Assembly (NCBI RefSeq): GCF_902729405.1
Contig: NZ_LR746496.1
Location: 868,001 to 932,000 of the forward strand
DNA length: 64,000 nucleotides
Direction of reading: 5' to 3'
Source of the DNA: Acididesulfobacillus acetoxydans
GTDB taxonomy: Bacteria; Bacillota; Desulfitobacteriia; Desulfitobacteriales; Desulfitobacteriaceae
This document shows positions 27,525 to 46,528 of this stretch, piece after piece. A model generated the notes under the pieces. That model did not search any database. It was not told the origin of the DNA and saw nothing but the letters and a program-made list of their open reading frames with translations. The first letter of the stretch is position 1. The number at the start of each line of letters is the position of its first letter. Position numbers and translations under genes: made by a program.

Positions 27525-27651
27525 CAGCAACCGAAAGTACAACGGCTTATCTTCAAAAAGGACAACAGTTTTCGTGCAAAAGTACAGAACCCTATTCGGC
27601 AAAAGCAGAAAGCTTCACCGTCTGCCCGGGATGCAAGGAGGTTGTAACGAA

Positions 27652-28743
27652 GTGAACGCCATGTCAGCGCTCCTGCGCCGGGCGGAACAAATACATGATC
27701 TGAGCCGCGATGAACTGGTCTGCCTGCTCTCCGGCCGCGAGTATGACCGCGAGATTTTTGCCGCGGCCGACAGGGTGAGGCGAAAGTATGTCGGAGACGA
27801 AGTGCACCTTAGGGGTCTCATCGAATTTTCGAATATCTGCCGGAGAAATTGTTTTTACTGTGGGCTGAGAGCGGGCAACCGGGGGCTGGGGCGCTACCGG
27901 CTCACCCCGGAAGAAATCATCGGGCTTGCCCGGAAAGGCCGGGAGTATGGCTACAGGACCGTGGTCCTGCAATCCGGGGAGGATGACTACTACACGGTGG
28001 CCAAGATGTGCCAGATCATCAGAGAATTAAAGCAGTATGGTTTGGCCGTCGCTCTGAGTATCGGCGAGAAAAGCGGTGCGGACTACGCAGCTTTCAGAGA
28101 GGCGGGGGCGGACCGCTACTTGCTTAGGATCGAGACAACGGACAGAAGGCTTTATGAAGACTTGGATCCGGGCATGAGTCACGAGAATCGAAAACGCTGT
28201 CTGCGTGACCTGAAAAGGCTCGGGTATGAAGTCGGCTGCGGTTCTCTGGTGGGGCTGCCCGGCCAAACGATTGCTTCCCTGGCCGACGATATTCTCTATT
28301 TTCGGTCGCTTGAGGCGGATATGGTGGGCATAGGCCCGTTCATACCGCATATGGATACTCCTTTGAAAGGAGCCCAAGGAGGAGACTTCCTGCTCAGTTT
28401 GAAGGTCATGGCCTTGACACGCCTGCTCCTCCCGGACAGCAATATCCCGGCCACCACGGCTATGGAGACGCTGCGCCGGGAAGGGCGCCTTCTCGCCTTG
28501 CAAAGCGGGGCCAATGTAGTCATGCCGAATATCTCGGAACTGCAATACAGAAGACTCTATGCCTTATACCCGGGCAAAGCGGGAGCGGATGAGTCCCCGG
28601 AGGAAAGCCGCGCGGAGCTCTGCCGGAAGCTCGAGGGCATGGGCAGAACGGTGGGAAAGGGTTACGGGTCAAGACAGAAGCTTTATGCCCGGGAGAAAGC
28701 GGGCCGGCGGCGACCGGGCGCTGCTCGCAGGGAAAATTCTTAG
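27652..28743 (+). CDS. hydE: [FeFe]-hydrogenase maturase HydE (radical SAM)
   Basis: A 363-residue radical-SAM protein. The cluster motif is C63-x3-C67-x2-C70 in FSNICRRNCFYCGLR, followed by YRLTPEEI and the EKSGADYAAFREAGADRYLLRIET segment typical of HydE rather than biotin synthase. HydE, with HydF and HydG, builds the 2Fe subcluster of the H-cluster. GTG at 27652 is chosen because AAGGAGG (27635-27641) is 10 bases upstream; an in-frame GTG at 27574 lacks a site. This is the only + strand gene of the island and it converges on hypE. Confidence 0.9.
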   Translation: MNAMSALLRRAEQIHDLSRDELVCLLSGREYDREIFAAADRVRRKYVGDEVHLRGLIEFSNICRRNCFYCGLRAGNRGLGRYRLTPEEIIGLARKGREYGYRTVVLQSGEDDYYTVAKMCQIIRELKQYGLAVALSIGEKSGADYAAFREAGADRYLLRIETTDRRLYEDLDPGMSHENRKRCLRDLKRLGYEVGCGSLVGLPGQTIASLADDILYFRSLEADMVGIGPFIPHMDTPLKGAQGGDFLLSLKVMALTRLLLPDSNIPATTAMETLRREGRLLALQSGANVVMPNISELQYRRLYALYPGKAGADESPEESRAELCRKLEGMGRTVGKGYGSRQKLYAREKAGRRRPGAARRENS

Positions 28744-31519: not shown

Positions 31520-32008
31520 TTAGGCCCCGGCTCGGCCCGGTGCGGGTGCAAGTTCTGAGTAGACAAGGTTTGTGAAGTCGCGGAGCCTAGCTTGAATTTC
31601 GGGCGAAGGAGCAAGGCCCCAGGCAATCACAGCCGGTTGCATAGCGAAAATATCAGTGTCGGGTTCCTGTCCCAGGAGATCGGCGATTTGCAACACTTCC
31701 AGCAGCCCGACGTCGTGGATCGAAGCCATATAACCTTGCGGAAAAGCCCCTAAATCGGCCGGTTTAAAATGAAAGATGGCACCGGGTTCGGCCTTGGCGT
31801 CTATAGAATCCAGCACGATCAGATGCTCCACTCCTTCAATCAAAGACAGGAGCTGAGGGCCGGCTGTGCCGGCCTCGATCACTTCCACATTGGGGGGAAG
31901 GTCATAGTGAGTGAGGAGGCGGGCGGCGTGAATACCCAGGCCCTCGTCCTGAAGGAGTTCATTTCCGACTCCCAGTATCAAAGTTTTGGCGTGAGCTGCG
32001 ACTGACAT
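31520..32008 (-). CDS. hyaD: [NiFe]-hydrogenase maturation peptidase (HyaD/HupD type)
   Basis: A 162-residue nickel-dependent endopeptidase that removes the C-terminal tail of the large subunit after metal insertion. It shows the family start LGVGNELLQDEGLGIHAAR, whose acidic residue binds nickel, the second acidic site in VLDSIDAK, and a histidine in SIHDVG. ATG 32008 has AAGGAG 11 bases upstream. The substrate tail is visible at the end of the large subunit gene in the same operon. Confidence 0.92.
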   Translation of the reverse strand: MSVAAHAKTLILGVGNELLQDEGLGIHAARLLTHYDLPPNVEVIEAGTAGPQLLSLIEGVEHLIVLDSIDAKAEPGAIFHFKPADLGAFPQGYMASIHDVGLLEVLQIADLLGQEPDTDIFAMQPAVIAWGLAPSPEIQARLRDFTNLVYSELAPAPGRAGA

Positions 32009-32154
32009 CGTGTTTAATGCTCCTTCGGGTTTATCGTGCGGGGAAGGCTTCCTGAGGGCAGGGTCCCAGCCGCAACGCTGCACATGTTCGCGGGCTTGTA
32101 TCTTGCGCTGACGGGGGCGGCGAATTCACTTGACGCGGTCAAGCGAGGGTACCG

Positions 32155-32754
32155 TCAAATGCGTTCATGGGCCATATTCTTGCCGACAGAGCGGCTCTCT
32201 TTGCGTTGCCGTCCCGTAAACATTTCCCAGAAGGCCTGCGGGGATTCGGTGAAGACGAGGTAGAGATGGATGACCAGGAAGGTGATGAACAACCAGGTGA
32301 AAAGATAGTGGATCGAACGAATTTCCGCCAGGCCCAACCATCCGACGAGGAAAGACATGGTTCCCTGCGGCCAGCCCATGGCGAATCCGGTAAGGGCTTG
32401 CAAAATGATCATGAGGATGACCGCGAGATAGGCCAGACGCTGCAGGGGATTATAAAGCCCCTGCTTGGCATCCTTATTACTTAAAAAGAGATAGTATTTC
32501 ACCTGTTGAGGCAACGACCGAACATTCGGTTTAAACTCCCAATAGTCCCGATAGCGTCCGAGAAAGGCATAATAGATGCGGAGGGCCAAATTGGCGAGAA
32601 GCACGAATGCTGCCACATAGTGGACATAGCGGATGGTGCCCATCTGCCCGTAAGCAGCCGGCCGGTGCAGATAGAACCCGGTAGCTGCCAGTACTACCAT
32701 GGCGGTCAAGTTGACGGCATGGGCAACTCTCTGCGGCAGGTGATGGGTTTCCAT
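32155..32754 (-). CDS. hyaC: [NiFe]-hydrogenase cytochrome b subunit
   Basis: A 199-residue membrane protein with four helices (about residues 15-35, 50-72, 105-130, 140-165). Candidate haem-ligand histidines lie in PQRVAHAVNL, RYVHYVAAF, RSIHYLFTW and VIHLYLVF. It passes electrons from the hydrogenase small subunit to quinone or another membrane acceptor. ATG 32754 follows GAGGAGGAATG. It lies directly downstream of the large subunit; a 146-base gap separates it from the peptidase gene. Confidence 0.92.
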   Translation of the reverse strand: METHHLPQRVAHAVNLTAMVVLAATGFYLHRPAAYGQMGTIRYVHYVAAFVLLANLALRIYYAFLGRYRDYWEFKPNVRSLPQQVKYYLFLSNKDAKQGLYNPLQRLAYLAVILMIILQALTGFAMGWPQGTMSFLVGWLGLAEIRSIHYLFTWLFITFLVIHLYLVFTESPQAFWEMFTGRQRKESRSVGKNMAHERI

Positions 32755-32782
32755 TGAACATTCCTCCTCACATTCACGAATT

Positions 32783-34342
32783 TCAGCCAATCCGGAACTC
32801 AAGTACACGGTTGCTCTCCGGATGGATAATATGAATGGCGCAAGCCAAGCAAGGGTCGTACGAGCGCACGACGCGCACGATGTTGTTCGGATTTTCCGGA
32901 TCGGGTACGGGTACCCCAATCAGGGCTTGCTCAAGGGGTCCCGGCTGGCCGTTCTCGTCTCGGGGCGAGTGGTTCCACGTTGTGGGGACGACCATTTGAT
33001 AATTGGCGATTTTGTGGTTGGCAATTTCCACCCAGTGACCCAGGGCGCCCCGCGGCGCATCAATCATGCCGATACCGGCGCCCGTTGCGGGCGGGTCCCA
33101 GTGTTCTGTGTCATGGATGCGCGTCCTGCCTTGCTTGATATACCCTTCCAGTTCATCAAGCCAGCCGGGCATGGCCTTGGCCAAGAGGACTGTCTCATAG
33201 GCCCTGGCCGCATGGCGGGCGACCGCTCCGGGTTTTATGCCGTACTTGGTGACGATATCCATGAAAGGAGCGGGCTTGAGGACCAGCATGCGGGCCAGGG
33301 GGCCCACCTCCATGGGTTTGCCGTCGTAGCGGGGAGCTTTGATGAACGAGTAGGCTCCGGGTTTATTCAAATCGAAAACAGTGTCACCCTGCACCGGATT
33401 CTTGGTGCCGCAGGCGGGTGTGTACCAAGAGTACTTTACGGCCTCCGTGATCTTAGCTTGGTCAACAGGCTGGACATTGCCGAACCGGTTGTCGAAAATG
33501 ACACCGGCGGGAAAGAAGAGTTCACCTTTGCCCGCGAGAGGAAAGCCTCCGTAGGTGAGATAGTGCCCGTAGCCGCCGCCGATGCCGGCTCGGGCCAGGG
33601 GAAGCAGGGGCCCGGTGCCGAAAGTGGCGACATCCTTCCAGTATACGTTTTCCGCAAAGTCAGCCTGTTCGGCCAGAAGCGTACGGAATTGCTCAATTTG
33701 GGTAATATCAGGCAGCATGGTCACACCGCCGGCGACGATGCTGGACTGGTGGGGCTGCTTGCCGGAAAAGATGGCGGACATCTTTTTCGCTTTAGCCTGC
33801 ATTTCCAGGGCTTTGATATAATGGGACACCGCTAAAGTCACTAGATCAGGATCGTTGACGCTGAATTCGTCAGGTTTATAGCGGGGGAGGAGCGGAGAGG
33901 TATCCCCGGAGTGCACCAGTTTGACTATTTTGTCCTTGACGGCCAGGAGTTTCGGGTCTTTGCCCTGATAATGGGTTACCGCCGTTACATCGAGGTAGTC
34001 GAGAGCGGAGAGATGATAGAAATGCAGGGGGTGATCATGGAGCCACATAGCCCCCAGAATAAGGTTTCGCAGGACCCGGGCCGCTTGTGGGAGTTTGGCT
34101 CCCTGCGCGTTTTCAACGGCGACTGAGGATACCCAGCCATGTGAGCCGGCACAGACCCCGCAGACGCGTTCTGTGACGTAAGTGGCGTCGCGCGGATCTT
34201 TTCCCTTCAGGAGGACCTCCAGTCCCCGGGCCATGGTACCGCTGGCGTGGGCATTGGTCACCTTGCCGCCTTCTATCTCAACTTCGACTTTGAGATGCCC
34301 TTCAATACGGGTGATGGGATCGATCACAATTTTTTGAGTCAT
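32783..34342 (-). CDS. hyaB: [NiFe]-hydrogenase large (catalytic) subunit
   Basis: A 519-residue subunit that holds the NiFe(CN)2CO site. The four nickel-iron cysteines are C61 and C64 in ERVCGVC and C498 and C501 in DPCLACAIH. The protein continues 15 residues past H504, the tail cut off during maturation. TRIEGHLKVEVE near the start is typical of membrane-bound uptake enzymes. Its ATG overlaps the stop of the small subunit (TAATG), so synthesis of the two subunits is coupled. Confidence 0.97.
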   Translation of the reverse strand: MTQKIVIDPITRIEGHLKVEVEIEGGKVTNAHASGTMARGLEVLLKGKDPRDATYVTERVCGVCAGSHGWVSSVAVENAQGAKLPQAARVLRNLILGAMWLHDHPLHFYHLSALDYLDVTAVTHYQGKDPKLLAVKDKIVKLVHSGDTSPLLPRYKPDEFSVNDPDLVTLAVSHYIKALEMQAKAKKMSAIFSGKQPHQSSIVAGGVTMLPDITQIEQFRTLLAEQADFAENVYWKDVATFGTGPLLPLARAGIGGGYGHYLTYGGFPLAGKGELFFPAGVIFDNRFGNVQPVDQAKITEAVKYSWYTPACGTKNPVQGDTVFDLNKPGAYSFIKAPRYDGKPMEVGPLARMLVLKPAPFMDIVTKYGIKPGAVARHAARAYETVLLAKAMPGWLDELEGYIKQGRTRIHDTEHWDPPATGAGIGMIDAPRGALGHWVEIANHKIANYQMVVPTTWNHSPRDENGQPGPLEQALIGVPVPDPENPNNIVRVVRSYDPCLACAIHIIHPESNRVLEFRIG

Positions 34343-35500: not shown

Positions 35501-35512
35501 TCTAAGCTTAGA
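35501..35512. promoter_or_regulatory. Palindrome TCTAAGCTTAGA in the hyaA leader
   Basis: A perfect 12-bp palindrome about 40 bases before the hyaA start and downstream of the predicted sigma-54 transcription start. It shares the GTCTAA...TTAGA half-sites found upstream at 35870-35884, so the same protein may bind both. Confidence 0.5.
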
Positions 35513-35606
35513 TGGCCAATGAAACCGTCTGCCCCCTCCTCGGGCGATCGGTCTCATAAAGGGAAAAATTAAGGTATTTATAATAAGTCAGATAAAGGGA
35601 TTTCCA

Positions 35607-35622
35607 TGCAAAAAGCATACCA
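35607..35622 (-). promoter_or_regulatory. Sigma-54 promoter of the hydrogenase operon
   Basis: On the minus strand TGGTATGCTTTTTGCA: the GG of -24 and GC of -12 are separated by exactly 10 bases, and 10 of the 12 fixed positions of TGGCACG-N4-TTGCA match. Transcription would start near 35596, giving a leader of about 130 bases before hyaA. A sigma-54 activator gene lies immediately upstream. Confidence 0.8.
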
Positions 35623-35750
35623 ACAAGTGAGCGAGGCTGCCCGGGCCCGGCGCGAGAAGGGTGCATATTGCCTGAATAGTGCCGAAAATAGCCGGCCGCG
35701 GGTCAAACGGAGTACGAAACGCGAAATGTAAACTTTCTGAATAGGCACAG

Positions 35751-35772
35751 AAAAAGCGCTTGCGTAAGCGCT
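35751..35772 (-). terminator. Terminator after the sigma-54 regulator
   Basis: On the minus strand AGCGCTT (35772-35766) pairs with AAGCGCT (35761-35755) around a 4-base loop and runs into TTTT (35754-35751). It separates the hydF-hydG-regulator transcript from the hydrogenase operon. Confidence 0.75.
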
Positions 35773-35884
35773 CCAATTGTCTAGATATTGGACAGTGACA
35801 AGAGCTTGTTCGCTTGTCCAGACTCGAAAAGAGTTGGGAAAATGCTAAATGTGTCTAGATATTAAACATGTCTAAGAGTTAGAC
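35773..35884. promoter_or_regulatory. Cluster of repeated dyads, likely activator sites
   Basis: Three related sites: TGTCTAGATATTGGACA (35778-35794, itself inside CCAAT...ATTGG), TGTCTAGATATTAAACA (35852-35868) and GTCTAA-GAG-TTAGAC (35870-35884). Between the first two lies a further dyad, GGACA...TGTCC (about 35790-35819). They sit about 190-280 bases upstream of the predicted sigma-54 start, the usual position for enhancer sites. Which protein binds them is inferred from the adjacent activator gene. Confidence 0.6.
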
Positions 35885-35973
35885 GGAAATTACGGCCGCG
35901 GCAGTCGGCAAATGCCTCGGAGAGTGCGGCCGAACAGGATAATTTACTGGCAAGTGCGGTTGGCGCCGGTTCT

Positions 35974-38184
35974 TCAGCCGCTTTCCATGAGTCCGTACTC
36001 TTTCAACTTGAGGTAGAAGGTGGCCCGGGGCATGCCGAGAGTCTGGGCGGCGGCGGCGCGGTTATTTCCGCTCGTCTTCAAAGCCTGGGCGATCATTTTC
36101 TTTTCCAGTTCCTGCACAGCCTCTTTTAAAGGTTTTAATTCTACAGAGGAGTCGCTTTTCGCCAACTTTGTCAGGAAAGGGGGCAGGTGGTAGGGCTGAA
36201 TGACATTTTCGTCAACGGTATAGTGCAGGCGTTCAATGATATTCTCCAATTCGCGCACGTTTCCCGGCCAGTCGTACTGCATAAAGCAGCCGATGGTGTC
36301 TTCACTGAAGATTTTCGGCGGAACCTTGCGGGCCAGGCCCATTTTCTGGGAGAAGTGGTTGACTAGGTGGGGAATATCTTCTTTGTGGTCGCGCAAAGGG
36401 GGCATTGTAATGCTGATGACATTTAAGCGGTAGAAGAGATCGGCCCGGAATTTTCCTTCGTGCACGAGACGGCGCAGCTCACGGTTGGTGGCGGCGATGA
36501 TCCGGGCATCAAGCCTGAGCGTATGAGTTCCGCCCACTCGCTCAAATTCCCGTTCCTGCAAGACGCGCAGCAGTTTGGCCTGCATGGTTAAGGGCATGTC
36601 CCCTATTTCGTCAAGTAAAATGCTGCCTCCTTTCGCCAATTCGAATTTGCCGGGTTTTCCCCCTTTTTTGGCGCCTGTGAAAGCCCCTTCTTCATAACCG
36701 AAAAGTTCCGATTCAAGCAGGTTTTCCGGCAGGGCTGCGCAATTGATGCCGATGAAGGGGTGGTCCCGCCTATTGCTCAGGCGATGGACGAATTGGGCGA
36801 AGACCTCTTTGCCCCCTCCGCTTTCACCCTGAATGAGTACGTTGGCGTCATTACGGCTGGCTTTGACGGCGAGACGCCGCAATTCCAGGTTGGCAGCGCT
36901 GATGCCGATAAGAAACTGCTCATTCTCGTGATAGGTCTGTTTGAGGCGCAGGCGCTCTTTATAGATTTCGATTTCGCCGTGTGACTGTTCAATCAGATAA
37001 GGAAGGCACATATCAATTTCCGCCAAGCCTTGGTATACGGCCACCGCTTTTTCGCGGCAGGAGTCATAGCCGCAGGAGCCGCAGTTCAATTCGTCTTCGG
37101 GCTTGAACTTGTTGGTATAGCGTAGAATTTCCTTGATTTCCGATTCACTCGGTTCCTTGAGAACGTGATGCTTGTCCGCGAATTCCCGGTGCAAATTAAG
37201 GGGCGGATTAGGTTCGATTTCGTCGCGTTTCTTGCGCTGGGCATATTTGAAAATTTGATATTTGCGGCTGAAGAGGTCGAGGGGGCTGTCCATTTCCGGG
37301 CCGTCGATACAACCCCGGCAGAGCAGGATATCGATGAAGCGGGCTTGCACCAGGCCGTCCTGCAGGTTATGCAGAAATTCGAGACAGTCCTCTTTGCCGT
37401 CGACGATGGCGATGTCTTCTTCCCTATAGAGGGTGCCGTCCGGATCAAGGTTGCGGGTCAGGCCGCCGCTGAGCGGGAAAAGGGGCGGCAGGGATTCGCC
37501 CCGGGGCCGTTGGGGGACGGAACGGTCGAGTTCGCGGTGAAAGCCATGGCTGTCCAGCATGCCTTTGAGTTCTTTGAAAGTAAGCACGGCATCAAGCACA
37601 CCTTGCCCGAATTCCGTCATTTCTTCTTTCTTGGCAATGCAAGGGCCGATAAAGACGATTTTTGCCTGAGGGAATTTCCAGCGCGCATATTTGGCACTGG
37701 CGAGTACCGCGGAGTCGACCGGGACGAGAAAAGGAATGAGAGTGGGAAAATGGCGTTCAATCATGCCCACGATGGCGGGGCAGTATGAGCTGATGGCCAA
37801 ATCCGGGTTGTTGACCAGAAATTCCCGGTAAGCCGGAACGGTCAATTCAATACCGTGGGTGACTTCGATGACCTGGGTAAAGCCGAGACTTTTCAAATCG
37901 GCGAAGAGCTCCTCGGCTTCCAAGTAGTAAAAAGAAGCCGGGAAAGAGGGGGCAAGCAAGGCGACTGTTTCGCCCCCGGCGAAGAAGCGCGGCAGGTCTT
38001 CCACATAACTCACGATTTGCTTGGCATTTTGGGAACATACCCGCACGCAGTTGCCGCAGCTGATGCAGCGTTCTTCCACGACAGTAGCCTGACCGAGTTC
38101 GACCTTGATTGCTTTCACCGGGCAGTTGCGGACACAGGAATAGCAGGCTTTGCATTTGTCAGCAATCGTTTTGACGACAGGCAT
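35974..38184 (-). CDS. H-cluster sensor fused to sigma-54 transcription activator
   Basis: A 736-residue fusion. Residues 8-52 hold two 4Fe-4S ferredoxin motifs (C11, C14, C17, C21; C40, C43, C46, C50). Residues about 70-330 form an [FeFe]-hydrogenase large-subunit-like domain with three degenerate H-cluster motifs: SSYCP (C135), GPCIAKK (C182) and [10 protein letters not shown] (C289, C292). The usual proton-relay cysteine before C135 is tyrosine, as in sensory rather than catalytic enzymes. [10 protein letters not shown] motif (C368, C371, C376, C393) marks a further Fe-S domain. The AAA+ domain has Walker A GESGGGKE (453-460), the sigma-54 contact GAFTGA (500-505) and Walker B ILLDEI (522-527). 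A Fis-type helix-turn-helix ends it (about 706-731). It lies between hydG and the [NiFe] hydrogenase operon. Proposed role: H2 or redox sensing and activation of that operon. Confidence 0.93.
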
Positions 38185-38284: not shown

Positions 38285-39712
38285 TTAAAAATACAGATCC
38301 CTTTCACCCTGAACCAGGCGTTCCAGGCGGGCCTCAGTTTCGGCACGGGTCTTGGCCAGGGGAATCCGGGCCAGGTGTTGGGCGATGGTTTCTTCGCCCA
38401 GGGAGCGCACGGCCGGGGAAGCGTAGTCCAGCAGATACTCTTTAAACGTCAAGATGGCATTGGGCTGACACATGTTCTGAATGGAGCCGCTTTTAGCGAG
38501 AGGCATAAAATGGTCCCCGGTACGCCCTTGGCGGTAACAGGCGGTGCAGAAGCTCGGCAAGAAACCTTTTTGGCAGAGGTCGGCGATCACCTCGTCAGGA
38601 GAACGCCGGTCACTCAGCTGAAACTGAGGGGCAGCCGGGGAGCTCTGCGCGCTGCCGGCGGAGGCATACCCGCCCACATCGGTGGAAGAACCCGCGCTCA
38701 ATTGGGAAATGCCCAGGGCGAACAGTTCATCGCGCAAAGCGGGTTCTTCCCGAGTGGAAATGATGAGGCCGGTGTAAGGTACGGCGAGCCGCAGGACAGC
38801 CACGATTTTCTTGAGGTCCCGATCCGTGACTAAATGAGGAAAAGTCCGCAAATCAACTCCTGCGGCCGGGCGCAGGCGGGGTACGGAAAGAGTGTGCGGT
38901 CCTACCCCGAACGACTTTTCCAGGGCCTGAGCGTGACTCAGCAGGGCCAGCACTTCAAAATGATAATCATAGAGGCCGAAGAGCACACCGAGCCCTACAT
39001 CATCGATGCCGGCGCTCATGGCGCGATGGTGGGCCGTGGTATGGTAGTCGTAATCTCTCTTGGGACCGGAGGGATGTACTTGGCTATAGGTTTCCCGGTG
39101 ATAAGTCTCCTGGAAGAGAATATAAGTGCCGATTTGGGCCTTTTTCAGGCGCCGGTAGTTTTCAACGCTTGTTGCGGCGATGTTGACGTTGACCCGCCGG
39201 ATACGGCCGTTTCCTTCCCGCACTCTGTAGATAGCAGAAATGGCTTTCTCCAAGTAATCCAGGTCACACTCGCCGGGATCCTCCCCGCATTCCAAAGCCA
39301 GGCGCTTGTGCCCCATGCGCTCCAGGGCTCGGATTTCTGCCTCTATCTCATCTAGGGTTAAACGGTGGCGTTCAAATTTATTGTCCCTGCGGTAGCCGCA
39401 ATACAGGCAGTTGTTGATACAGAAACTGCTCAAATAGAGAGGAGCGAAAAAGACCATACGCCGGCCGTAGATTTTCTGCTTGATGGCGCCGGCCGTGCGA
39501 AAAAGTTCGCCGAGCACCGCGTCATCCTCACAAAAGAGAAGTTGGGCGGTCTCCTCCAAGCTGAGCCCTTCTGCCTCCCGCGCCCGGTCGATGACAGCCA
39601 GCAGGTGCGCGGGGGCGGAAGACGCGCTTTGCCGCCGGGCCTCGGCCAAAAGGCGGTTAATCCGGTCTTCGTCGATAAAAGAGGCGTCAAACAACGGATT
39701 TTTTTGCTCCAT
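38285..39712 (-). CDS. hydG: [FeFe]-hydrogenase maturase HydG (radical SAM)
   Basis: A 475-residue radical-SAM tyrosine lyase that makes the CO and CN ligands of the H-cluster. The SAM cluster motif is C98-x3-C102-x2-C105 in SFCINNCLYCGYR. The C-terminal auxiliary-cluster motif is CTACYRQGRTGDHF. ILFQETYHRETY and GLYDYHFEVLALL are typical of HydG and separate it from ThiH. ATG 39712 gives the normal N-terminus, though its ribosome site is weak; the frame is open to 39826. It lies 100 bases upstream of the H-cluster sensor gene. Confidence 0.93.
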   Translation of the reverse strand: MEQKNPLFDASFIDEDRINRLLAEARRQSASSAPAHLLAVIDRAREAEGLSLEETAQLLFCEDDAVLGELFRTAGAIKQKIYGRRMVFFAPLYLSSFCINNCLYCGYRRDNKFERHRLTLDEIEAEIRALERMGHKRLALECGEDPGECDLDYLEKAISAIYRVREGNGRIRRVNVNIAATSVENYRRLKKAQIGTYILFQETYHRETYSQVHPSGPKRDYDYHTTAHHRAMSAGIDDVGLGVLFGLYDYHFEVLALLSHAQALEKSFGVGPHTLSVPRLRPAAGVDLRTFPHLVTDRDLKKIVAVLRLAVPYTGLIISTREEPALRDELFALGISQLSAGSSTDVGGYASAGSAQSSPAAPQFQLSDRRSPDEVIADLCQKGFLPSFCTACYRQGRTGDHFMPLAKSGSIQNMCQPNAILTFKEYLLDYASPAVRSLGEETIAQHLARIPLAKTRAETEARLERLVQGERDLYF

Positions 39713-39906
39713 CAATTTTTTCCCGGTCGCTAAATAACATGCCAGGCTCCCTTGCCGCCCAGGCTCTGCCGGACGCTGAAAGTTACTGTCGCACGGCCAC
39801 TGGACGAAACACTTCAATAAAGACATGTTTATTCCCGCCGACTCAAACGGAAAACCGGGTTGTTCACTCCTTCCGTAAATTGATCAAACAGGTGGGGACA
39901 GTCGGG

Positions 39907-41280
39907 TCAGAACTGTCCCGGGGCCAGGGTGTCTTCCGGCTGCGCGGGTTGCAGTCCGCATTGCTGGCGTGAACGGATAACCCGTAAGGCATCTGGAAAA
40001 GGTGACAAGGTCCTGGGCAGAATCCCGTGCAGATAGGCGATGCCGACTCCGTAATTGACCACAGGCACTCCGGCGGAGGTAATCCGGTGCAGGCGGGCGA
40101 GCATCTGCCGGCGATTCAGCATACAAGCTCCGCAATGTACGACGAGTTGAAATTCACTCAGGTCCGCGGGCAGAGTGCCGCCGCTGACCCAAGTATAGGA
40201 GAGTTTGCCGCCGACCTTTTGTTCAAGCCAGGAGGGAATTTTCACTTTGCCGATATCGTCATCCGTCCGGTGGTGGGTGCAGGCCTCGGCAATTAAGATG
40301 TGATCCCCCCTCCGTAAACGTTCGATCGCCTTGGCACCGGCGGCTAACTCGCACAGATCTCCTTTATAGCGAGCGAAAAGAATGGAGAAGGAGGTCAGGG
40401 TGATTTCCGCCGGAGTCAGGGTGTTAACCGTTTTGAAGGCTTGAGAGTCCGTGATGACCATTCTGGGCGGGTTTCTCAATGAGGCCAAGGCCGCGGGCAG
40501 TTCTTCGCTCTGTATGGTCAGGGCCTGGGCGTGATGGTCGAGAAGGTCGCGAATGACCTGAACCTGGGGCAGGATCAAACGGCTCTTGGGGGCGGAACGG
40601 TCAATGGGCGCCACGAGGATCACGGTATCCCCGGCTTGGACCAGATCTCCGATCAGGGTGGGTTCCTCCCGGTCCGGAGAGGCGGCTTCAATAATAGCGG
40701 ACTTGAGGGCCTCGATCCCGGCTTTGGTTCGCGCGCTTGCCGGGATGACCGGGACTGTCGGGGGAAACCGGTTCGCAGCCGCAGTACGGATCCGGGCTAC
40801 CGTGTCCGGGCTGAGAACGTCCACTTTGTTCAGAGCGACAACGAGTGGCAGCCGGCGTTCCTGTAAAAGGGAGACGATCTTGTCTTCTGGGCTTCCCCAA
40901 CCTTCCGGGGTATCGACGGCGAGGAGGGCGAGGTCGGTTTTGTCCAGGACGTCGAGACTGCGCCGGACCCGTTCGCCGCCTAAGATTCCTTCGTCGTCCA
41001 GACCCGCGGTATCGACCAGAACGACCGGGCCGATGGGTAAGATCTCCATGGTTTTGTAGACAGGGTCGGTGGTTGTCCCGGGCGTGGATGAGACAATCGA
41101 CACTTCCTGGTTGGCAATCGCGTTGATCAGGCTGGATTTGCCGGCGTTGCGGCGGCCGAAAACCGCGATGTGCAGGCGTTCTCCCCGTGGGGTCTCGTTG
41201 AGTCCGGCTGCCCCGCCTGTTGTTGCGGAGTGGCTGGGGTGGGCGTTGTTCGGTAAATCATGGTCCGCTGGTTTGTACAT
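39907..41280 (-). CDS. hydF: [FeFe]-hydrogenase maturation GTPase HydF
   Basis: A 457-residue scaffold protein on which the 2Fe subcluster is assembled. The GTPase P-loop is GRRNAGKS (residues 42-49), with STPGTTTDP, VDTAGLDD and NKVD following. The C-terminal Fe-S ligands are in EACTHH and HCGAC. ATG 41280 is preferred: the sigma-A promoter at 41432-41404 would start transcription near 41397, downstream of the alternative ATG at 41403, and the extra 41 residues are not conserved. First gene of the minus-strand hydF-hydG-regulator unit. Confidence 0.92.
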   Translation of the reverse strand: MYKPADHDLPNNAHPSHSATTGGAAGLNETPRGERLHIAVFGRRNAGKSSLINAIANQEVSIVSSTPGTTTDPVYKTMEILPIGPVVLVDTAGLDDEGILGGERVRRSLDVLDKTDLALLAVDTPEGWGSPEDKIVSLLQERRLPLVVALNKVDVLSPDTVARIRTAAANRFPPTVPVIPASARTKAGIEALKSAIIEAASPDREEPTLIGDLVQAGDTVILVAPIDRSAPKSRLILPQVQVIRDLLDHHAQALTIQSEELPAALASLRNPPRMVITDSQAFKTVNTLTPAEITLTSFSILFARYKGDLCELAAGAKAIERLRRGDHILIAEACTHHRTDDDIGKVKIPSWLEQKVGGKLSYTWVSGGTLPADLSEFQLVVHCGACMLNRRQMLARLHRITSAGVPVVNYGVGIAYLHGILPRTLSPFPDALRVIRSRQQCGLQPAQPEDTLAPGQF

Positions 41281-41403
41281 GGGTATCCATCCGTTTCTCA
41301 GCCAAAATACTGGGTTCTTGAGCGGCCGTAACAAGTGCCTGGCGGGTTCGCCTGAAAATGCGGCACCGCTTGGGACAGCACTGTCTAAAAATTGTACATC
41401 CAT

Positions 41404-41432
41404 ATTGTAATCCTTTGCGGGCGATTGTTCAA
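41404..41432 (-). promoter_or_regulatory. Sigma-A promoter of hydF
   Basis: On the minus strand TTGAAC (41432-41427), 17 bases, TACAAT (41409-41404). A strong match, reading hydF-hydG-regulator. It suggests that maturases and sensor are made by housekeeping transcription while the hydrogenase itself waits for sigma-54. Confidence 0.75.
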
Positions 41433-44917: not shown

Positions 44918-44977
44918 GTGACGGAAGACAAGGTGACGGAAGATAAGGTAACGGAAGACAAGATGACGGAAGACGAT
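44918..44977 (+). repeat. Four 15-bp tandem repeats at a gene start
   Basis: Four near-identical units of GTGACGGAAGACAAG encode TEDKV-like pentapeptides. Three of the four first codons could start translation (GTG, GTG, GTA, ATG), each with a GGAAG-type purine run before it. Copy number could change without a frameshift. Confidence 0.85.
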
Positions 44978-46528
44978 TGGTTTGTGCAGGTGCTGGACAG
45001 GCTGGCGGAAGGAATTCACATTGTGAATACGGAGGGTGTGACGCTTTTTTACAACCGGGCCATGGGGCGAATGGAAGGCCTGGGTCCCGGGGATGTCCTC
45101 GGCAAGCAACTTTTAAGCCAGTTTCCTTCGCTTTCCCAAGAAACCAGCACTCTGTGGCAGGTTTTGCGGACCCGGGAGCCGGTTCTTGGGGTCAGTCAGA
45201 CCTACTTGAATCCGCGCGGAGAAAAGATTACCTCTGTAAACGACTCTTATCCTCTGTTTAGAGAGGGACTTTTCACAGGGGCTTTGGAAGTGGCCCGGGA
45301 CCTGAGCCACGAGGCTAAATTGACCGAACGGGTGGCGTTGCTGCAAAGCCGCTTGCGCTCTTCTCCGGCCGGTTCCGGGGATAAGCCTTACTATACATTT
45401 GGCGACATAAAGACGCAGAGTTCCTTGATGCTCAAAACGCTGGCTAAAGCGGAAAAAGCTGCCAGGAGCTCGGTGAACGTGCTCATTTCCGGGGAGACGG
45501 GCACCGGCAAGGAAATGGTCGCTCAAAGCATTCACGCGGCTAGTCCGCGGGCCGGGGGGCCATTCGTCGCCCAGAACTGTGCCGCATTTCCGGAGGGGCT
45601 TTTGGAAGGCATTCTCTTCGGCACGGTCCGGGGGAGTTTCACCGGAGCCCTGGACCGCCCAGGGCTGTTCGAACAGACGCAAGGCGGGACGATTCTCCTC
45701 GACGAGCTGGATTCTATGGGTTGGAATTTGCAGGCCAAATTGCTGCGGGTTTTGCAGGAAGGCAAGGTCCGGCGGCTGGGGGATACGCGTGAGCGGGAAC
45801 TCGATGTGCGGTTTCTGGCGACGACCAATGCTCCGGCTCATCAGAGTGTGAAGGAGGGCCGGCTGCGCCCGGATCTTTTTTATAGGCTGAGCGTGGTCGA
45901 TCTTTATCTCCCGCCTCTCAGGGAACGGGGCAGGGATGTTGATCTTCTCATTGATTATTTCTTGGCGCTTTATGCCCGGCTGCACGCCAGGAACGTTCCC
46001 CGGCTCCTGCCGGCAGCCGCTCAGGCCCTTAAAGAGCATGATTGGCCGGGTAATGTGCGGGAGCTGGCGCACGTTATAGAAGGAGGACTGGTTATTGCGG
46101 GCGAGGAGTTCGGTCTGGAGGAACTGCCCAATTACCTGCGCTGCGGCACGGGACGCGGCTCCGCAAAGGAGGCGGGCACGGCCGGCGGGGACGGTGAAAG
46201 AGGGGGCGGCGCGGGCTATCTTTCTAAGGTGAAAGAGTCGGATTTTGCCGGGACAAAAGAGCAAACTTCCGCCGCAAACGGGAACCCCGGCCGGCAGGTG
46301 GGAGTGTCGGGTTGTGAGGCGGAAGAGCGGGTGGCGAACGGTTTTAATTTTTCCCCGGAGATGCCCTCGGGGATGAGTCTGCCGGAACGGGTCGAATGGC
46401 TGGAACGGCGGTCGATTCAGGCCGCTCTGGCGGAAACCCGGGGAAATGTCACGAAAGCGGCATTCACATTGGGAATTTCCCGGCAGTTGCTGCAGTACAA
46501 GATGCGGCGCTGGTCTTTGTGGCGCTAA
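44918..46528 (+). CDS. RocR-like PAS/sigma-54 activator
   Basis: About 536 residues. A PAS sensor domain (about 22-130) is followed by a sigma-54 AAA+ domain with Walker A GETGTGKE (192-199), GSFTGA (239-244, a variant of GAFTGA) and Walker B TILLDEL (258-264), then a Gly/Ala-rich linker of about 75 residues not typical of the family, and a Fis-type helix-turn-helix at the end. Domain order and its place before ornithine genes resemble RocR, the arginine/ornithine activator of Bacillus. The start is uncertain because four 15-base repeats offer starts at 44918, 44933 and 44963; all are in frame. Confidence 0.85.
   Translation: MTEDKVTEDKVTEDKMTEDDWFVQVLDRLAEGIHIVNTEGVTLFYNRAMGRMEGLGPGDVLGKQLLSQFPSLSQETSTLWQVLRTREPVLGVSQTYLNPRGEKITSVNDSYPLFREGLFTGALEVARDLSHEAKLTERVALLQSRLRSSPAGSGDKPYYTFGDIKTQSSLMLKTLAKAEKAARSSVNVLISGETGTGKEMVAQSIHAASPRAGGPFVAQNCAAFPEGLLEGILFGTVRGSFTGALDRPGLFEQTQGGTILLDELDSMGWNLQAKLLRVLQEGKVRRLGDTRERELDVRFLATTNAPAHQSVKEGRLRPDLFYRLSVVDLYLPPLRERGRDVDLLIDYFLALYARLHARNVPRLLPAAAQALKEHDWPGNVRELAHVIEGGLVIAGEEFGLEELPNYLRCGTGRGSAKEAGTAGGDGERGGGAGYLSKVKESDFAGTKEQTSAANGNPGRQVGVSGCEAEERVANGFNFSPEMPSGMSLPERVEWLERRSIQAALAETRGNVTKAAFTLGISRQLLQYKMRRWSLWR

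Follow-up and report, generated by a model that had tools for sequence, protein, structure and literature searches.

A predicted one-protein hydrogen sensor-activator and the control region of the hyaABCD hydrogenase operon in Acididesulfobacillus acetoxydans

Proteobacteria are known to control hydrogenase operons through sigma-54 enhancers, and sensory [FeFe] modules have been recognised both as proteins on their own and in linkage to PAS domains. The hyaABCD locus of Acididesulfobacillus acetoxydans raises the question of how a [NiFe] uptake hydrogenase operon is controlled when the gene in front of it encodes a fusion of both elements, an [FeFe]-hydrogenase-like module and a sigma-54 activator. 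The genome is a single contig of 4.52 Mb, and the window, the whole stretch of 64,000 nucleotides that was analysed, covers its positions 868001-932000. The gene order on the minus strand is hydF, hydG, the fusion regulator, a 510-bp spacer, hyaA, hyaB, hyaC, hyaD, hypD and hypE-like genes, and the features are listed in Table 1. The actual start of hyaC is probably further downstream than the first start given there. A second [NiFe] large-subunit-like frame with a weak match, the only one besides hyaB, was found about 58 kb past the end of the window (G000:C1:990282-991547). The closest relative in the comparison was Peptococcaceae bacterium CEB3 (L002), the regulators of the two being 96% identical. 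The answer considered likely is that a one-protein H2 sensor-activator switches on the [NiFe] uptake hydrogenase through three operators (1-3) and a sigma-54 promoter, and represses its own synthesis at a fourth.

Table 1. Positions of genes and predicted control elements in the window (the last row lies in another genome).
Feature	Coordinates	Strand	Description
hydE	27574..28743	+	Third H-cluster maturase, about 7 kb off on the opposite strand; TIGR03956, score above cut-off
hyaD	31520..32083	-	Hydrogenase maturation protease
hyaC	32155..32919	-	Cytochrome b subunit; first-start ORF
hyaB	32783..34342	-	[NiFe] hydrogenase large subunit; NF033181, score above cut-off
hyaA	34342..35463	-	[NiFe] hydrogenase small subunit, Tat signal; operon gene 1; Pfam and NCBIfam
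Leader palindrome	35501..35512	.	TCTAAGCTTAGA; present, excluded from the operator count
Sigma-54 -24/-12 element	35607..35623	-	TTGGTATGCTTTTTGCA; predicted start about 35596
Terminator-like hairpin and T-run	~35748..35775	-	AGCGCTT-ACGC-AAGCGCT, between operator 3 and the promoter
Operator 3	35778..35794	-	TGTCCAATATCTAGACA; centre about -190
Operator 2	35852..35868	-	TGTTTAATATCTAGACA; centre about -264
Operator 1	35869..35885	-	CGTCTAACTCTTAGACA; 17-bp palindrome, centre about -281, abuts operator 2
Fusion regulator	35974..38184	-	2x[4Fe-4S], [FeFe]-hydrogenase H-domain, Cx2Cx4Cx16C, sigma-54 AAA+, Fis HTH
hydG	38285..39826	-	H-cluster maturase directly upstream of the regulator; TIGR03955, score above cut-off
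hydF	39907..41280	-	H-cluster maturation GTPase; ORF from Met 42 (first-ATG ORF to 41403)
Operator 4	41382..41398	-	TGTACAATTTTTAGACA; covers predicted start of the hydF-hydG-regulator unit; 21.2 bits
Sigma-A-type promoter	41404..41432	-	TTGAAC-N17-TACAAT, just upstream of operator 4
PAS-AAA-HTH activator	44918-46528		Second sigma-54 activator, about 9 kb from the locus
Second triple-operator and sigma-54 unit, Paradesulfitobacterium	L089 5724-5870		Genes at 6024-7679

Residues 1-420 of the regulator hold two ferredoxin-type motifs, an H-domain and a Cx2Cx4Cx16C motif, and the cluster cysteines (C11/14/17/21, C40/43/46/50 and C368/371/376/393) are invariant in 15 diverse homologues. The bEBP features are likewise present (PF00158, PF25601 for the lid and PF02954 for the Fis HTH), with an intact GAFTGA. 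The fold predicted for it has a mean pLDDT of 72 and matches that of [FeFe] hydrogenases (best E 1.9e-16, TM 0.5-0.6), the H-domain part of the model being of moderate confidence only, and a long helix connects the sensor module to the AAA+ domain in that model. Two N-terminal clusters, the absence of C299 and a C-terminal Cx2Cx4Cx16C motif are hallmarks of the sensory groups C and D of [FeFe] hydrogenases (PMC8163306, PMC13104023). The regulator shares all of these with both groups (TmHydS, TamHydS; M2f, M2e). The cluster is followed by a PAS domain in group C and is the last element in group D, whereas the regulator continues into AAA+ and HTH domains and has CxxC at L3. Judged by its sequence, it is a group C/D-type sensory [FeFe]-hydrogenase module fused directly to a sigma-54 activator.

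The genes hydF and hydG lie immediately upstream of the regulator in the window as well as in L002, L004 and L005. In two relatives (G039, 100% complete, and G040, 83%) no Fe_hyd_lg_C protein besides the regulator was detected, yet both encode HydF and HydG, and G039 also encodes HydE. Since the maturases there have no other detected client, the regulator is argued to be the one they serve, with the reservation that both genomes were assembled from metagenomes, so that a catalytic [FeFe] hydrogenase could be encoded on a missing contig. The regulator likely carries an H-cluster, for which C135, C182, C289 and C292 are the candidate cysteines. An intact H-cluster is not certain because the L3 spacing is CxxC in the compared sigma-54 fusions as against CxxxC in group A enzymes. 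The same L3 spacing, the replacement of the proton-transfer cysteine C299 by Tyr/Phe (SS[YF]CPAIV in close orthologues), the several Fe-S clusters predicted and the only moderate confidence of the H-domain model would also suit a general redox or oxygen sensor, which would use the control region as proposed but sense through Fe-S clusters with a hydrogenase-like domain devoid of H2 chemistry. Such a sensor is unlikely, though worth keeping in mind: none of the four candidate H-cluster cysteines varies among 15 diverse fusions, hydF and hydG adjoin the regulator and the maturases are retained where no other [FeFe] protein was detected, hydrogenases are the neighbours of the fusion family, and TmHydS and TamHydS, which also have no proton-transfer cysteine, nevertheless turn over H2 (PMC8163306). 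For the preferred reading, sensing by an H-cluster, it is more tentatively proposed by analogy that H2 would be the signal and would be activating rather than inhibiting; induction of an uptake hydrogenase by H2 has its precedent in HoxA (PMC10073562).

A -24/-12 element with exact 10-base GG-GC spacing had been placed on the minus strand about 130 bases before hyaA in the initial annotation, and the coordinates agree: in TTGGTATGCTTTTTGCA the GG is at 35621/35620 and the GC at 35609/35608, exactly 10 bases apart, the bases flanking them are close to consensus, and the predicted start is 133 bases ahead of the hyaA ATG (35463). The chance of a match this good in the spacer on this strand is about 0.002-0.004. 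The sigma-54 reading depended on the presence of rpoN, of which the genome has one copy (E 6.1e-60), and sigma-54 activators are numerous, 14 of 14 scored candidates having matched. The pattern TGGYAYRN5TGCW occurs 66 times genome-wide, compared with 27 times for the reversed control pattern, so the genome uses -24/-12-type promoters. The terminator that had been proposed to isolate the activator gene from the operon was also found, as a hairpin and T-run folding at -12.5 kcal/mol (z -2.0), although a simple terminator scan did not report it; several relatives show a hairpin at the equivalent position, between operator 3 and the sigma-54 element.

That hyaA owes most of its transcription to a sigma-A promoter or to read-through from the regulator gene, the sigma-54 element being minor or inactive, is very improbable. 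The element (TGGTATG-N4-TTGCA in this genome) does fall short of the full consensus and is unusually distant from operator 3 (171 bp in the window and CEB3, 250 bp in L003), but a scan of the regulator-hyaA spacer detected no sigma-70-like site, the hairpin follows operator 3, and the element is identical in CEB3 with equivalents in eight more genomes. About 40 bases directly after the -12 element (35554-35606, minus strand; CTTTATCTGACTTATTATAAATACCTTAATTTTT) are near-identical in CEB3 while the flanks diverge, and a role of this stretch in the early transcript is possible.

Upstream of this sigma-54 promoter, three related dyads at about -190 to -280 had been described. All three were found again, but their form was redefined: comparison shows each to be a copy of a 17-bp palindrome, TGTCTA-N5-TAGACA, and two of the copies abut. 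The layout of three sites and a sigma-54 element between the regulator and hyaA was present in 10 of 10 genomes with a readable spacer. Operators 1 and 2 are always at a pitch of 17 bp, that is in exact abutment, and operator 3 follows operator 2 after 71-96 bp. In seven of these ten genomes, 44-46 bp separate the start of operator 3 from that of the sigma-54 element behind it. None of 20,000 first-order shuffled spacers contained an abutting pair or two sites of at least 17 bits; the matrix used contained the window's own sites, which makes this result flattering and leaves the other, independent tests unaffected. The palindrome in the leader, TCTAAGCTTAGA, had been counted as a fourth site. 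The sequence exists, but its 4-base spacer puts it in a 16-bp register, and it is degenerate in the nearest relative and missing in the other eight spacers; for these reasons it was rejected as an operator. A leader hairpin around it was rejected as well, with a z of -1.0, no better than shuffles, and loss in L002.

A fourth operator, overlooked in the initial annotation, is found instead at the regulator's own promoter. The operator matrix was trained on 30 spacer sites only, so that operator 4 lay outside the training set, and scanning with it gave exactly one extra strong site, of 20-23 bits, in every one of the 11 loci, in each case immediately ahead of the regulator or of the hydF-hydG-regulator unit. 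By eye, a TTGACA/TATAAT-like promoter precedes this site by a few bases in each locus, and in L003 the site stands before the regulator gene although hydFG is absent. Operator 4 is a probable autorepression site, because a position just downstream of a sigma-A-type promoter is that of a repressor. The start of hydF is probably at 41280, because the first-ATG reading begins upstream of operator 4. Read from sequence and comparison, the region as a whole is the control region of hyaABCD, with a sigma-54 promoter, three operators and a hairpin, together with the fourth operator at the regulator promoter.

The sites are tied to the adjacent fusion regulator by the conserved spacer layout, the restriction of the pair to regulator-bearing genomes and the operator at the regulator's own unit in all 11 loci. 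A survey of 74 genomes of the order found the abutting pair in 9 of 11 with a close regulator orthologue and in none of 63 without one (Fisher p about 5e-10, the kinship among the genomes being ignored). In 8 of the 9 the pair is in the regulator-hyaA spacer; the match in G031 and a second one in G014 are strays. Together with rpoN and the conservation in 10 of 10 spacers, these results uphold the earlier proposal of an enhancer-activated promoter for the adjacent fusion regulator. A genome-wide search for the dyads, which that proposal had called for, confined the strong 17-bp sites to this locus. It was carried out as two pattern searches rather than with the matrix, and these found no other strong site that would point to further targets in this genome. 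Ten one-mismatch matches were copies of one sequence, TGTCCACGACGTAGACA (e.g. C1:443294-443310), presumably in a repeated mobile element and resembling the operator by chance, and two weak stray sites scored 12.8-13.1 bits.

The same kind of fusion adjoins [NiFe] hydrogenase genes in other Bacillota families. Several spacers there contain related palindromes, some as pair plus single, and in seven arrangements the distance from operator 3 to the sigma-54 element is 45-46 bp, similar to the 44-46 bp of seven near relatives. Regulators with the recognition helix PRAT go mostly with TGTCTA- or TGTATA-type sites and those with TRVT with TGTAAA/TGTATA-type sites (by eye), a covariation between families that an HTH reading these sites would give. 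No operators of the 17-bp type were found at the locus of the G041 regulator (47% identity), which probably reads other DNA, nor beside the activators that adjoin catalytic [FeFe] hydrogenases (L082, L083, L085 and L087). The TnrA box is TGTNAN7TNACA. The least probable alternative is that the 17-bp sites serve another regulator, either the PAS-AAA-HTH activator about 9 kb away or one of the GlnR/TnrA type whose box the operator resembles in length and ends, the fusion acting elsewhere, since abutting sites were restricted to genomes that carry the fusion regulator, the own-gene site persists even without hydFG (L003), no PAS-AAA-HTH-type neighbour was matched beside the regulator in relatives, and operator letters and HTH recognition helix covary between families. 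The GlnR/TnrA box itself was rejected because 58 of 60 half-sites have T or C at position 5, whereas the TnrA box has A there.

With the fusion regulator as the protein acting at these sites, a sequence of events can be proposed. HydE, HydF and HydG would charge the [FeFe]-hydrogenase-like domain with an H-cluster, and the charged domain would sense H2, or a redox state set by H2. The signal would travel via the C-terminal Fe-S cluster and the helical linker to the AAA+ domain. Through its Fis HTH the protein would bind all four operators. On operators 1-3 the activated form would assemble and, with the DNA looped, contact the sigma-54 RNA polymerase; its ATPase would open the promoter so that the uptake hydrogenase is made under H2. 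The hairpin would separate the regulator transcript from the hya operon, and regulator bound at operator 4 would block its own promoter and thus keep the regulator level constant.

The NtrC operator is TGCACY-N5-RGTGCA. The regulator is like NtrC, NifA, NorR and PspF in its AAA+/GAFTGA and Fis HTH, in palindromic enhancers upstream of a -24/-12 promoter and in a likely negative autoregulation, and unlike these systems in its operator sequence, in the fixed layout of abutting pair plus single and in its hydrogenase-type sensor input. In Cupriavidus necator, a sensory hydrogenase controls the sigma-54 activator of [NiFe] uptake hydrogenase operons (HoxBC-HoxJ-HoxA; PMC10073562). The principle of a hydrogenase-type sensor governing a sigma-54 activator for a [NiFe] uptake hydrogenase is common to both, but HoxBC is a separate [NiFe] sensor acting via a histidine kinase, whereas here an [FeFe]-type sensor is fused to the activator and there is no kinase. 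No regulatory [NiFe] hydrogenase with a histidine kinase of the HoxA type was found among the proteins annotated around the regulator. In the literature searched, which missed most subscription papers, no description was found of an [FeFe]-hydrogenase module joined directly to a sigma-54 activator, nor of the operators and regulon of such a fusion. Although sensory [FeFe] hydrogenases have long been proposed, the output of their signalling is unproven; the study of group D explicitly asks how the signal is relayed (PMC8163306), and the role of the C-terminal cluster in sensory [FeFe] hydrogenases is not settled (PMC13104023). In the present case sensor and output domain share one polypeptide, the DNA sites and the promoter are identified and conserved and the target is physiologically sensible, by which H2 sensing at an H-cluster could be reduced to simple reporter, footprint and ATPase assays. 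The protein is a possible part for an [FeFe]-based H2 biosensor, and the conserved operator can serve as a search tool for the regulon.

In Paradesulfitobacterium ferrireducens (G042) a third site, a terminator-like sequence and TTTGGTATAAATATTGCAAT accompany a second abutting pair (coordinates in Table 1). The genes behind this second unit are FolD-like (weak match) and methylenetetrahydrofolate reductase (MetF)-like (below curated cut-offs), which suggests that folate C1 steps are under H2 control in Paradesulfitobacterium. It is an evenly balanced proposal that a Bacillota-wide class of one-protein H2 switches exists, negatively autoregulated and built from a sensory [FeFe] module with a variant (CxxC) H-cluster site, a fixed pair-plus-single enhancer and sigma-54, whose targets are the [NiFe] uptake hydrogenase and sometimes Wood-Ljungdahl-type folate genes. 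At another locus (L086 8246-11909) a histidine kinase carries a related sensor module as a fusion and the sigma-54 activator next to it is a protein of its own, an arrangement that amounts to the same logic split over two proteins.
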